From contig NZ_JSUS01000009.1 of the NCBI RefSeq assembly GCF_000805455.1, forward strand, positions 62,001 to 126,000: a stretch of 64,000 nucleotides of DNA, given 5' to 3'. Both the position numbers and the translations under genes were made by a program. Shown in pieces: positions 1,499-6,217 of this stretch. The notes under the pieces are model-generated. The model searched no databases and was not told where the DNA came from. It worked only from the letters and a program-made list of their open reading frames with translations. Each line of letters starts with the position of its first letter. Within the stretch, counting starts at the first letter, position 1. The stretch is from Acinetobacter sp. A47. Its GTDB lineage: Bacteria > Pseudomonadota > Gammaproteobacteria > Pseudomonadales > Moraxellaceae.

Positions 1499-4399
1499 AT
1501 GACTGACGCTCAATCTGCTCAAAATATTGCAACCACTTACGATCCAACCGAGATCGAAAAGAAGTGGTATCAAATCTGGGAACAACAAGGTTACTTCAAG
1601 CCTTCAGGTCAAGGTGAATCATTCTGTATCATGATTCCACCACCGAACGTCACCGGTAGCTTGCACATGGGTCATGGCTTTAACAATGCCATCATGGATG
1701 CCCTCACCCGTTACAACCGTATGATGGGTAAAAATACCTTATGGCAACCGGGGACTGACCACGCAGGTATTGCAACGCAGATGGTGGTCGAACGTCAGTT
1801 GGGTGCACAAAACATCAGCCGTCATGACCTAGGCCGTGAAAAGTTCATCGAAAAAATCTGGGAATGGAAAGAACAGTCAGGCGGTACCATTACCCGTCAG
1901 ATCCGTCGTCTCGGCTCGTCTGTAGACTGGTCACGTGAACGTTTCACCATGGACGAAGGTCTATCCAATGCAGTGAAAGAAGTGTTCGTCAAACTGCATG
2001 AAGATGGCTTGATCTATCGTGGCAAGCGTCTGGTTAACTGGGACCCGAAACTACAGACTGCGCTATCTGATCTCGAAGTTGAGTCAGATAAAGAAGAAGC
2101 AGGTTCATTGTGGCACTTCAAATATTTCTTTGAAGACAAATCACTGCGTACCCACGATGGTAAAGATCACATCGTTGTGGCAACCACACGTCCTGAAACC
2201 TTATTGGGTGATACCGCTGTTGCAGTAGCACTGGATGATGAACGCTATGCACATCTTGTAGGCCAGAACATTATCCTGCCAATTACCGGCCGTGCTGTTC
2301 CAATCGTTAAAGACGAATATGTCGACAAAGAATTTGGTACCGGCTGTGTAAAAATCACCCCTGCGCACGACTTCAATGACTATGAGGTAGGTAAGCGTTG
2401 TGAATTGCCAATCATCAATATCTTCAATAAAAATGCAGAAGTTCTGGCTGAGTTTGAATATATCGCCAGAGCGGGCGAGCAGATTTCTAAAACCATTGCT
2501 GCGCCAGCAGACTATATCGGTTTAGAACGTTTTGAAGCGCGTAAGAAACTGGTTGAACAGGCTGAAGCTGAAGGCTGGTTAGAACAGATCCAACCGTATA
2601 CCTTGAAACCACCTCGCGGTGACCGTTCTGGTGTGATCATTGAGCCATTATTGACTGACCAGTGGTATGTGAAAATTGCGCCATTGGCAGAGCCTGCAAT
2701 CGAAGCGGTGAAAGATGGCCGTATCAAGTTCGTTCCAGAGCAATACAGCAACATGTATATGGCGTGGATGAACAACATTCAGGACTGGTGTATTTCACGT
2801 CAGTTGTGGTGGGGTCACCGTATTCCAGCCTGGTACGATGCTGAAGGCAATGTATATGTGGGTCGTGACGAAGCTGAAGTTCGTGCCAAAAATAACATCC
2901 CTGCGGATACTGCTCTAAACCAGGATGAAGATGTACTGGATACATGGTTCTCCTCTGCCCTGTGGACCTTCTCAACCTTAGGTTGGACCGGTGATGCAGA
3001 GAAAGATGCGGCCAATGATTTCCTCAAAACTTTCCATCCGACTGATGTGTTGGTGACAGGTTTTGACATCATCTTCTTCTGGGTTGCACGTATGATCATG
3101 ATGACCCTGCACTTCATGAAAAATGAAGACGGTTCATCTCAGATTCCATTCAAGACCGTTTACGTGCACGGCCTGGTTCGTGATGGCGAAGGCCAGAAGA
3201 TGTCGAAATCTAAGGGTAACGTGCTTGACCCACTCGACCTGATTGACGGTATCGATCTGGAAAGCCTTGTTGCAAAACGTACTACAGGTTTGATGAATCC
3301 GAAACAGGCAGCGAAGATTGAAAAATCAACGCGTAAAGAATTCCCGGAAGGCATTCAGGCTTACGGTACAGATGCAGTTCGTTTCACTTTCTGTGCGCTT
3401 GCCAACACCGGTCGTGACATCAAGTTCGATATGAAGCGTGTTGAAGGCTACCGTAACTTCTGTAACAAGATCTGGAACGCGACCCGTTTCGTATTGATGA
3501 ATGTTGAAGGACAAACTGTTGGTCAAGAAGCACGTCCTGATCTATGGGAACTGCCTGAACAATGGATCATGAGCCGTCTGCAAAAAGCAGAAGCTGCGGT
3601 ACACCAGGCATTCGCCACTTATCGTTTAGACCTTGCTGCGCAAGCGATCTATGACTTTATCTGGAATGAATACTGTGACTGGTACGTTGAGTTAACCAAA
3701 CCGGTTCTGAACGATGCCAACGTATCTGAAGAGCGTAAAGCCGAAGTTCGCCGTGTATTACTTGCAGTAATGGAAGCCTCTTTACGTTTGGCTCACCCAT
3801 TGATGCCGTATTTGACTGAAGAAATCTGGCAAACCCTTGCGCCAATGTTAGGCAAAGGCGGCGCAACGATTATGACTGCGCAATACCCTGTTCCTGATCA
3901 AGCGAAGATGAATGATCAAGCTGAAGCTGATATGCAGTGGTTACAAGGTCTGATTGGTGCGGTACGTAACATCCGTGGTGAAATGGGCTTGGGTAATGCG
4001 CGTTTATTGCCGGTATTGCTGCAAAATATTTCTGATGCTGAACGTGAGCAAATCACACGTATCGAAGCGTTATTTAAAGCCTTGGCGAAAGTTGAAAGCA
4101 TTACCTTCCTGACACAAGGCGAAGAACCACCGCTTTCTTCTTCAAGTGTTGTAGGTCATGCATCGGTATTTGTACCAATGAAAGGCTTGATTGATCCTAA
4201 AGCTGAATTGGGTCGTTTGCAGAAGGACTTGGATAAGGTTCAAAAGCAACATGATCAAATTGCCAATAAACTTTCTAATGAAGGTTTTGTTGCTAAAGCA
4301 CCAGCAGCGGTTGTTGAAGGTGAAAAAGTGAAATTGGCTGAGTTTGCTGATCAGTTAGCGAAGATTAAGCAAAGTATGGAGCAGATTGCTGCGCTTTAA
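1499..4399 (+). CDS. valS: valine--tRNA ligase
   Basis: Cytoplasmic class I aminoacyl-tRNA synthetase that charges tRNA-Val. From the ATG at 1499 it has 966 residues, normal for the family. The HIGH motif is HMGH at residues 56-59 after PPPNVTGSL. The KMSKS motif ([10 protein letters not shown]) is near residue 567. The large inserted editing domain lies between them, and a C-terminal coiled-coil tail ends the protein. The frame is open back to 1421, but the extra 26 hydrophobic residues do not belong to the family and precede the probable transcription start. A strong terminator follows. Confidence 0.97.
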
Positions 4400-4426: not shown

Positions 4427-4461
4427 CATAAAGGGCTGATAATTCAGCCCTTTATGCTTTT
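4427..4461 (+). terminator. valS terminator
   Basis: A perfect 13-bp hairpin (arms 4427-4439 and 4444-4456, loop TAAT) is followed by CTTTTT, 28 bp after the valS stop. Confidence 0.85.
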
Positions 4462-4566: not shown

Positions 4567-4600
4567 CCCTCTCCTCGTAGGAGAGGGTTAGGGAGAGGTG
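4567..4600 (+). repeat. REP-like palindromic repeat, copy 1
   Basis: CCCTCTCCT-cgt-AGGAGAGGG (4567-4587) is a perfect 9-bp palindrome with a GC-rich tail TTAGGGAGAGGTG pointing right. The tail supplies the last codons and the TAA stop of the DUF559 gene. Copies 2 and 3 lie at 4984 and 5063. Confidence 0.85.
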
Positions 4601-4962
4601 CTTTTTCTTTTTAAATGCAAACAAACATTCCATAAATCTCCTAAAACTGATTCAGTATTTTTTAGCACATCATGATTCCAATACCGCACCACTTTTAAAC
4701 CTAAAGCTTCTAAAAACTTGGTTCGTTCAGCGTCATATTCTTTTCCGTCGTCAGTACCGTGCTGACTGCCATCTAACTCAATCACCAAACCCAATTCATG
4801 ACAGTAAAAATCCACGATATAAGGTGCAATCACATGCTGTCTGCGAAATTTCAGATTCATAAACTGTTTAGCACGAAGTAATTGCCACATCAGATGTTCA
4901 GCATCTGTTGCATTACTGCGCATAGCTTTGGCGAATTCTAATAATTGTGGGTCTAGTTTCAT
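4588..4962 (-). CDS. DUF559 (Vsr/MutH-like endonuclease fold) protein
   Basis: Small 124-residue protein of the DUF559 family, predicted to have the very-short-patch-repair endonuclease fold. The candidate metal site is D51 (in IVDFY), E62 and D64 (in VIELDGSQH), followed by RTKFLEALGLKVVRYWNHDVL, which is typical of the family. An RBS (AGAGGAGAAAAAA then ATG) fixes the start. The gene fills the space between two inverted copies of the GC-rich palindrome: the left copy contains its stop codon and the right copy ends 22 bp before its ATG. No biochemical role is established for the family, and I infer a DNA-processing function only from the fold. Confidence 0.85.
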   Translation of the reverse strand: MKLDPQLLEFAKAMRSNATDAEHLMWQLLRAKQFMNLKFRRQHVIAPYIVDFYCHELGLVIELDGSQHGTDDGKEYDAERTKFLEALGLKVVRYWNHDVLKNTESVLGDLWNVCLHLKRKSTSP

Positions 4963-4983
4963 TTTTTTCTCCTCTTTTTAATT

Positions 4984-5017
4984 CCCCTCACCCCAACCCT
5001 CTCCCTGAGGGAGAGGG
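4984..5017 (-). repeat. REP-like palindromic repeat, copy 2 (inverted)
   Basis: CCCTCTCCC-tga-GGGAGAGGG (4997-5017) with the tail CCCCTCACCCCAA on its left. It is in inverted orientation to copy 1, so both tails point into the DUF559 gene. Confidence 0.85.
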
Positions 5018-5062
5018 AGCATCCTTTGTAAATTTGATAGTTATTCGATACGCAATGAAGTT

Positions 5063-5094
5063 CCCTCTCCTTTCAGGAGAGGGCTAGGGTGAGG
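5063..5094 (+). repeat. REP-like palindromic repeat, copy 3
   Basis: CCCTCTCCT-ttc-AGGAGAGGG (5063-5083) followed by CTAGGGTGAGG. It has the same orientation as copy 1. The stop codon of the next minus-strand gene (5095-5097) abuts its tail. Confidence 0.85.
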
Positions 5095-6117
5095 TTACAA
5101 CACCCCATGCCCCAACAACATCTCTACCCCACTCACCTTCTTCATATGCTTTAAACGCTCTTTTTCCCACTTCAACTGCTGTTTTAACTCAGCACAATCC
5201 GCATCTATGGCTTTATATACATCACTAATATGCACATGCTCTGCTTTGACTTTTTTCCCCAACTGAAAAGAATCCAGAATCTCTTCAATTTGACTTTCAA
5301 GCTGCTGACTTTGCTCATCCAAAGCCAGTTTATAAAACTTCACTTGTTCTGCAGATAACTCTTTAGCCCCAACGCCTTTATTCTGTTCAAGCTGTAATTG
5401 AAGCTTGAGCAAATAAAACAAATCCTGCTGTTCATAGGCCTGACTGGCCTGCTGAAACAACACTGTTTTTTCTTCCTTTTTGGACTCGTCTTGCTCACGA
5501 TCAGGATGAATCATCGCGGCAATTTTTAAATACACCGTTTTCAGCGATTGCGCTGCCATTTGCTCAGCTTGTTCACGTTTCTGTTGCTGTCGAAGTAATT
5601 TGGCCTGTTCCCTAGCCTGTTGCTGTTCAGCCGCATACTGCTCAAAATCACCTTGTTCTGATGCTGCACCATGCTCAGGACTTTCATCCTGTTCAAACTT
5701 GGTTGACTGTACTCTTTTATTCTTTTTAGCCAATTGCTGGGCATGTTGCTGATAAAAGGTATCGATCTGCCTGACCAGTTTTAACTGTTCCTCCTTCAAC
5801 ATCTTGGAATGCTTTAACATTTGGGCAAGTTGGGCAATTTTTTCATCCAGTTGCTGCATATCGGCTTTGGAAAACTCATGCTGTTGTAACAGCATCCAAA
5901 GCTGATTCAACTGCTGAAACAGGATGTCATGCAGCTCGCTATACACAGGCATCAGTTTTTGCCGTGTATGTTGCTGAATTTCAGCTTGGGCATTCTGCCA
6001 CATGGCAAGGCTGATTTTTTGCTGTTCTATTTGATCAATCAGGCGATTCAGCTTTTTCTGCTGTGCAGAAGGTTCAGCCCTTTGCTTTAAACTGACTTTA
6101 AGATCAAAAGACATCAT
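5095..6117 (-). CDS. glutamine-rich coiled-coil protein with J-like domain
   Basis: About 340 residues from the tandem ATG at 6117/6114; the open frame extends to 6162, but a weak AGG lies 7 nt before 6117. Most of the protein is Q/K/E-rich helix, probably coiled coil (about residues 15-185). A J-domain-like segment follows with LKTVYLKIAAMIHPDRE, the HPD triad at about residues 204-206, then FQQASQAYEQQD. J domains stimulate the ATPase of DnaK-type chaperones through HPD; a co-chaperone role here is inferred. There is no Zn domain or signal peptide. The stop abuts repeat copy 3. Confidence 0.7.
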   Translation of the reverse strand: MMSFDLKVSLKQRAEPSAQQKKLNRLIDQIEQQKISLAMWQNAQAEIQQHTRQKLMPVYSELHDILFQQLNQLWMLLQQHEFSKADMQQLDEKIAQLAQMLKHSKMLKEEQLKLVRQIDTFYQQHAQQLAKKNKRVQSTKFEQDESPEHGAASEQGDFEQYAAEQQQAREQAKLLRQQQKREQAEQMAAQSLKTVYLKIAAMIHPDREQDESKKEEKTVLFQQASQAYEQQDLFYLLKLQLQLEQNKGVGAKELSAEQVKFYKLALDEQSQQLESQIEEILDSFQLGKKVKAEHVHISDVYKAIDADCAELKQQLKWEKERLKHMKKVSGVEMLLGHGVL

Positions 6118-6217
6118 GTATCTGCCTAAAAATAAAAAAGTGTAGCAATAATCAGCCGACAAAGTCAGCCAACATTCTCAATATCCTGCTTGGATAAACC
6201 AGTCGCTGAACGAAGCT

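Follow-up and report, generated by a model that had tools for sequence, protein, structure and literature searches.

The DUF559 locus in Acinetobacter sp. A47

The window, a 64,000-nucleotide (64-kb) stretch of the Acinetobacter sp. A47 genome, contains a gene on the minus strand (4588..4962) that encodes a 124-amino-acid DUF559 protein (PF04480; E 2e-37, 127.8 bits against a gathering cut-off of 20.6) with a predicted nuclease fold of the Vsr/EDxHD type. The gene is intergenic, with valS (ending at 4399) on one side and a DnaJ-like gene (5095-6120; weak DnaJ profile match, below the cut-off) on the other; it occupies no intron or intein and is not a free-standing homing gene set in a conserved target. 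Its closest named relatives are from Acinetobacter. A search of the window genome with the PF04480 profile returned no second strong DUF559 gene; two weak matches (29-30 bits, at C23:295640 and C23:328951) probably belong to another subfamily. A 13-bp stem at about 4427-4456, behind valS and to the left of the unit, is perhaps the valS terminator.

An earlier sequence-only reading had described two palindromes of a common plan enclosing this gene. They are indeed present, at 4567-4587 and 4997-5017, but a third copy at 5063-5083, with a tail to 5095, had been overlooked. The pattern CCCTCTCC-N3-6-GGAGAGGG has three matches in the window and none in 100 shuffles of it, and the whole 3.91-Mb genome holds the same number, all three at this locus. 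The same reading had the tails turned inward, and those at 4591-4599 and 4985-4993 do point toward the DUF559 gene. It also had the left repeat supplying the end of the gene and the right one stopping 22 bp short of the start: on the minus strand the TTA beside the left hairpin reads as the DUF559 stop codon, the adjacent tail encodes the C-terminal T-S-P, and 22 bp separate the upstream repeat from the ATG. The description as a palindrome with a tail was nonetheless incomplete. In each repeat the tail mirrors the arm next to it, which makes the repeat an intrastrand-triplex motif and more than a palindrome. Behind such a mirror tail stand the rules of purine triplexes, in which G is placed on a G-C pair and A or T on an A-T pair.

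Motif 1 (T type, 4567..4599, plus strand) consists of a hairpin (4567-4587), the linker TTA (4588-4590) and a mirror tail (4591-4599) directed toward the gene; its hairpin has a z of -3.5 in a DNA fold. Motif 2 (C type, 4985..5017, minus strand) has its mirror tail at 4985-4993, likewise toward the gene, its linker at 4994-4996 and its hairpin at 4997-5017. Motif 3 (T type, 5063..5095, plus strand) comprises a hairpin (5063-5083), the linker CTA and a mirror tail (5087-5095). A triplex-motif detector recovers the three at 4567-4599 (+), 4985-5017 (-) and 5063-5095 (+). Motifs 2 and 3 form a REPIN-like doublet of one C type and one T type (4985..5095, unstranded) with a 66-bp spacing and outward tails, which adjoins the gene; the same C and T pairing is seen again at other Acinetobacter loci.

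The repeats belong to a published triplex family

By their sequence, the window repeats belong to the published intrastrand-triplex family BoxC/PIT/TM_ECO. Motif 2 is an exact fit, the only one in the window, to the TM_ECO/BoxC consensus CCCTCNCCC-N3-6-GGGNGAGGG-N3-GGGNGAGGG, which was taken from PMC4666352. Motifs 1 and 3 depart from it by a T/A pair at the loop and at the tail end, and satisfy the general rule of hairpin, linker and mirror tail with 0 mismatches. In the rest of the genome the published consensus has one further match (C71:137749-137783, GC type), and there is also one AA-ended repeat (C12:370975-370995). Hairpin, linker and mirror tail are common to the published and the window repeats, and the C and T types of the window pair in the manner of the half-types A and B, which occur in inverted doublets in 5/5 cases in K-12 according to the same source. 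That source reports that the E. coli motif forms a triplex in vitro with no clear sign of one in vivo, and that mobility functions were not encountered near the sites in the 56 E. coli genomes studied. Whereas no enzyme had previously been attached to the family, here a DUF559 gene lies between the repeats.

The design extends well beyond these sequences. The linker is YYR in 101 of 113 motifs found by the strict form of the detector, and the stems of more distant clades differ in sequence but keep the design: CCTTTCCC, CCTTCCCC, and CCTCCCTTT with AAAGGGAGG. In a variant that frames many DUF559 genes (L231, L244, L270, L274, L278 and others) a hairpin of 12-35 nt serves as the linker; among 59 long linkers, 52 are hairpins, and three (L119, L122, L138) of the eight named loci with a long-linker match are alphaproteobacterial. 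In many hairpin linkers the last letters are GAC, followed by GG, which suggested a kinship with CGTC-type REPs. This link was dropped because CGTC elements are described as having stems of 8-9 bp beginning with AT pairs, and CCA tails (PMC3733652); the same paper describes them as lacking a dedicated transposase. The association with DUF559 is not claimed for CGTC repeats. An RNA gene was also considered and rejected, all nine Rfam matches at E up to 1 being far below the gathering scores.

DUF559 genes are mostly framed by triplex motifs

The association was assessed in two sets of loci. The first comprised all 52 DUF559 genes scoring above 90 bits in 120 Pseudomonadota genomes, the window genome excluded; it was drawn so as to avoid selection by similarity and falls in just 23 genomes, so that its genes are not all independent. 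The second comprised 80 loci from many phyla, the best 80 of 573 confirmed relatives, ten of them from Acinetobacter. A strict detector demanded a 3-nt linker, and a relaxed one also took a 2-nt linker or a hairpin linker.

With the relaxed detector, a motif lies within 400 bp of 46 of the 52 genes, and on both sides of 31; this count is partly post hoc, since the linker rule was loosened after the flanks of failing genes had been read and the detector was thereby partly tuned on this set. Distant-flank and random-position controls were run with the same relaxed rule. The flanks of the 52 genes hold 104 motifs in 41,445 bp, against 20 in 116,612 bp farther out. In the wider set 71 of 80 loci are framed, 46 on both sides, with 166 motifs in 62,071 bp of flank against 43 in 648,876 bp farther out. 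Of 2205 positions of 310 bp drawn at random from these 80 loci, 73 have any motif and none has motifs on both sides; DUF559 loci are thus framed far more often than random positions. The strict detector finds a motif at 22/52 and 52/80 loci; in the wider set it places motifs on both sides in 29 and counts 113 in 62,071 bp of flank against 27 in 648,876 bp farther out, and three rounds of shuffling of these flanks gave 0. Even the relaxed detector finds no motif at 6/52 and 9/80 genes. The unit of gene and repeats that the sequence-only reading had proposed thus holds far beyond the window locus. Relatives in viral contigs have a strict motif in 2 of 13 cases. Among 199 Moraxellaceae genomes a homolog occurs in 41 and the palindrome in 42, and 17 of 18 close homologs have a palindrome within 300 bp. 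At one locus (L017/L079, G115:C72:105535-106231) a full DUF559 copy is followed directly by a truncated one, and triplex motifs separate the two.

Orientation is also regular: the nearest tails both face the gene in 34/46 two-sided loci of the wider set and in 25/31 of the 52-gene set. The main rival to a mobile unit is a caretaker role, in which a structure-specific DUF559 nuclease removes or repairs stalled hairpin or triplex structures, the repeats spread by other means, and the gene is kept beside them because it makes them tolerable. This account, which we regard as unlikely if deserving of attention, is in line with the presence of Holliday-junction resolvases and Vsr among the fold neighbours of the protein (below) and with deletions and instability tied to the repeats in PMC4666352. 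However, a caretaker has no need to sit between repeats, and the framing, with tails that face the gene on both sides, looks like the ends of an element.

The closeness of repeat and gene could alternatively reflect cis-regulation, the repeats being operators or terminators bound by the DUF559 protein with no movement driven by it. In keeping with this, 31 of the 82 genes that have a strict motif carry the end of their stop codon inside one, and the window repeat stands 22 bp upstream of the ATG; but many repeat copies are dispersed away from the gene, and PMC4666352 mentions earlier work in which the motif had no promoter or terminator activity. Regulation of this kind is improbable.

A predicted Vsr-like nuclease

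The model of the window protein (pLDDT 90.5) bears out, as a prediction, the Vsr-like fold that had been proposed from the sequence. The closest solved structure is 3hrl, NGO0050 of Neisseria gonorrhoeae (Z 16.2), followed by I-Bth0305I (Z 12.3, rmsd 2.8, 96 aligned residues) and Vsr (Z 10.8, rmsd 2.1, 100 aligned); a profile search is in agreement (3r3p, E 0.0014). Holliday-junction resolvases as well as Vsr are among the fold neighbours, and the matches of the model below the first five (TnsA, Hjc and others, Z <8) may reflect a common arrangement only. Across 49 sequences E22, E62, D64, H68 and D77 are invariant and D51 is kept in at least 90%. E22, D51, H68 and D77 may correspond to the EDxHD residues, and D51, E62 and D64 are presumably the metal site, from what is generally known of the fold. 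Given this conservation of E62, D64, H68 and, almost completely, D51, the DUF559 protein is probably active as a nuclease. In the predicted model residue 40 opens a strand (40-45) that runs beside the D51 strand. PMC9403480 places DUF559 in the EDxHD family.

The window protein shares its fold and sequence profile with Vsr and I-Bth0305I, but its gene lies between repeats and in no intron or intein. A gonococcal DUF559 gene (L089), which may be that of NGO0050, likewise lies beside triplex motifs, which, unlike those of the window locus, recur with a 281-bp period (L089:2005-2599). A Vsr-like action on T:G mismatches, with the repeats incidental, would suit the match to Vsr, and a DUF559-containing Vsr-like protein, VsrA, is described from Caulobacter in PMC12907096; such a role leaves the framing unexplained, and we consider it very improbable. 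Two other origins were set aside: as a defence gene the protein has only weak, partial PADLOC matches, and as regards a phage origin, one peptide pattern gave just 13 relatives in a viral collection.

Stem class follows protein class

The stems fall into classes that sort with residue 40 of the protein (window-protein numbering), which stands in FRRQ or FYRQ. The comparison covers 88 of the 143 loci with an open frame, a strict motif and a score above 100 being required. Where residue 40 is R, K or L, the stems are of the GC class in 63/63 loci (52 once near-copies are removed); where it is Y, they are AA-ended in 25/25 (22 without near-copies), one of these, L069, having two motifs of each class nearby and being classed by the nearest. 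On a 74-row tree the AA class requires 2 changes, compared with 19.4 in shuffles, of which 0/500 were as low; one of the two is L151, on a separate branch. AA-ended members come from Moraxellaceae, Contendobacter, Nitrospirae, Brocadia and one Gottesmanbacteria genome. The Gottesmanbacteria member is placed apart from the main AA clade, and although the tree is built on few columns, its well-supported branches force at least two changes. The match of GC and AA stems to the protein may rest on as few as two changes. Finer stem types track the protein tree less well, GGGAGG requiring 6 changes against 7.7 when shuffled (16/500 as low).

The match also holds inside one host, because paralogs of the same genome each adjoin their own stem class. 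Ten of 12 genomes with two paralogs are informative, and in 10/10 each gene has its own stem class beside it. Ten Acinetobacter genomes carry both paralogs in full, of which eight show the own stem class and two lack a motif; two genomes of other genera agree with the rule.

Across 66 Acinetobacter genomes, the palindrome occurs in 18/18 with a full clade-A gene and in 14/48 without one (Fisher 7e-8); for clade B the figures are 18/19 and 18/47 (2e-5). Thirteen of 44 Acinetobacter genomes in which both the clade-A gene and fragments of it are absent still have palindromes, up to 19 copies; for these genomes relics or action in trans must be assumed. Repeats in genomes without a DUF559 gene of the matching clade would also be expected if the gene were cargo within repeats moved by an unrelated transposase, for example a RAYT. 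That possibility appears remote: the PF01797 search of the host gives only a single decayed piece of a Y1 transposase, scoring 26 bits and interrupted by one stop, and cargo leaves unexplained both the match between stem class and protein class and the framing across many phyla.

Site polymorphism among genomes

A survey of the DnaJ side of the locus took in 30 Acinetobacter loci, out of 59 genomes with a match. The DUF559 gene lies within the fetched stretch in 12, all 12 with motifs, and 2 of the 18 loci without the gene retain a motif. Twelve loci, the window's included, still have valS within 1,500 bp; four carry gene and motifs and eight carry neither. Of the two findings that the sequence-only reading had named as contrary to its unit, framing no commoner than at random and presence in all relatives, neither was obtained: DUF559 genes exceed random positions, and 8/12 Acinetobacter genomes have no DUF559 gene or repeat between valS and the DnaJ-like gene. 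The side of the DnaJ-like gene (5095-6120 in the window) is variable in Acinetobacter, with a DUF559 unit, other sequence or none; between L206 and L209, from two species with 84% identical neighbourhoods, a single repeat stands against a doublet beside the DnaJ-like gene.

At a second site, behind a conserved gene for a putative deformylase, a clade-B unit is present in four of 11 genomes and missing from seven. Two genomes that are 96% identical at the putative deformylase gene differ there, and their clade-B units, 78% identical to each other, occupy different places. In two species pairs (L058/L059 and L009/L012) the units are 90% identical over 459 bp and 89% identical over 423 bp, and homology stops near the unit ends. 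Because of this site polymorphism and unit-confined homology, the units do not simply follow host history. No near-identical whole units within one genome occur among the matches listed, and neither a target-site duplication nor a recent jump leaving a precise empty site was seen in the compared loci.

YcjD and the BoxC repeats of E. coli

YcjD of E. coli K-12 is a DUF559 protein. The window protein belongs to the same family (PRK09767, E 9.5e-25) but is below the cut-off of the equivalog model (87 against 218 bits), and the same kind of repeat adjoins both genes. The fabI-ycjD gap holds a triplex motif with the coordinates of BoxC copy no. 9 in Table 1 of PMC4666352; by reading, the repeat at the ycjD 3' end looks degenerate. 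The fabI-ycjD block at 80% cover is found in 3362 of 5426 E. coli genomes. In 60 rows spread over the ranking, the median number of repeat places is 18 in the 37 rows covering the ycjD-side repeat and 5 in the 23 that do not, a contrast in which cover of the fabI-ycjD repeat stands in for the ycjD gene and which, as it probably follows phylogroups, is probably confounded with them.

Repeat sites in E. coli also vary. At hrpB-mrcB, K-12 has a doublet with inward tails, strains 536 and ZH063 are without it, and in an O111 strain there is an internal deletion; the short site is not base-precise. The sites ygfF-gcvP and lldD-trmL appear to vary as well. No clean empty site was found at ycjD, TetR and efflux genes lying behind fabI in the two strains without ycjD that were examined. 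The alx-sstT site was rejected as an empty site, its shorter allele being an internal deletion. Internal deletions in E. coli can leave one hairpin, an outcome that also suits a caretaker nuclease. In L174 (E. coli NDM3), where ycjD is annotated as incomplete, a deletion seems, by reading, to lie between two direct repeats near the 3' end.

A proposed nuclease-based counterpart of REP and RAYT

The explanation that we consider rather probable is that the triplex repeats form a REP-like system whose dedicated nuclease, with a Vsr fold, is DUF559. DUF559 may work like RAYT, though unrelated to it, with recognition and spreading of the repeats as proposed steps. The resemblance to REP elements and RAYTs, raised in the sequence-only reading, stands as an analogy only: in both systems the gene lies between inverted hairpin repeats, doublets combine two half-types, and dispersed singles and doublets occur. 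The enzymes differ, RAYT being an HUH/Y1 transposase and the window protein a PF04480 member with a predicted Vsr-type fold; from the sequence, the GTAG foot (or a variant) is absent from the window hairpins, and the DUF559-linked repeat has a triplex tail. Among the entries listed, the literature search, from which subscription journals were mostly absent, found no report joining DUF559 with these repeats.

In the mechanism that we infer, the autonomous unit would be hairpin-tail> DUF559 <tail-hairpin. Its repeats would combine a purine/pyrimidine hairpin, a linker of 2-4 nt or a hairpin linker, and a mirror tail able to fold back as a third strand; scattered singles and doublets would be non-autonomous, in the relation of REPINs to RAYTs. 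The protein would bind by recognising the folded repeat end when the repeat is single-stranded or extruded, with the strand around residue 40 partly responsible for reading the stem, and the putative metal site (D51, E62, D64) would nick or cut. Host repair or replication restart would then either remove the repeat or place a copy of it, or of the whole unit, at another site; the copying is assigned to the host because, to our knowledge, no Vsr-type enzyme rejoins strands itself.

A wider claim, on which we are evenly divided, is that bacteria have here a third type of replicator made of enzyme and repeat, in addition to transposase with IS and MITE and to RAYT with REP, characterised by triplex ends and a Vsr-type nuclease that would read the stem via the residue-40 strand. 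Its non-autonomous copies would then be the E. coli BoxC repeats, the Acinetobacter AA-ended repeats and the repeats with hairpin linkers from other proteobacteria.

Although BoxC/PIT repeats of E. coli have been known since the 1990s, they had been given neither a function nor a mover. The partner named here is one small family with a solved structure and a member in K-12, so the question can be tested in a laboratory strain, and a hypothesis of function is offered for a widespread domain of unknown function. If the proposal is true, REP-like elements would have arisen at least twice, from unrelated enzymes.
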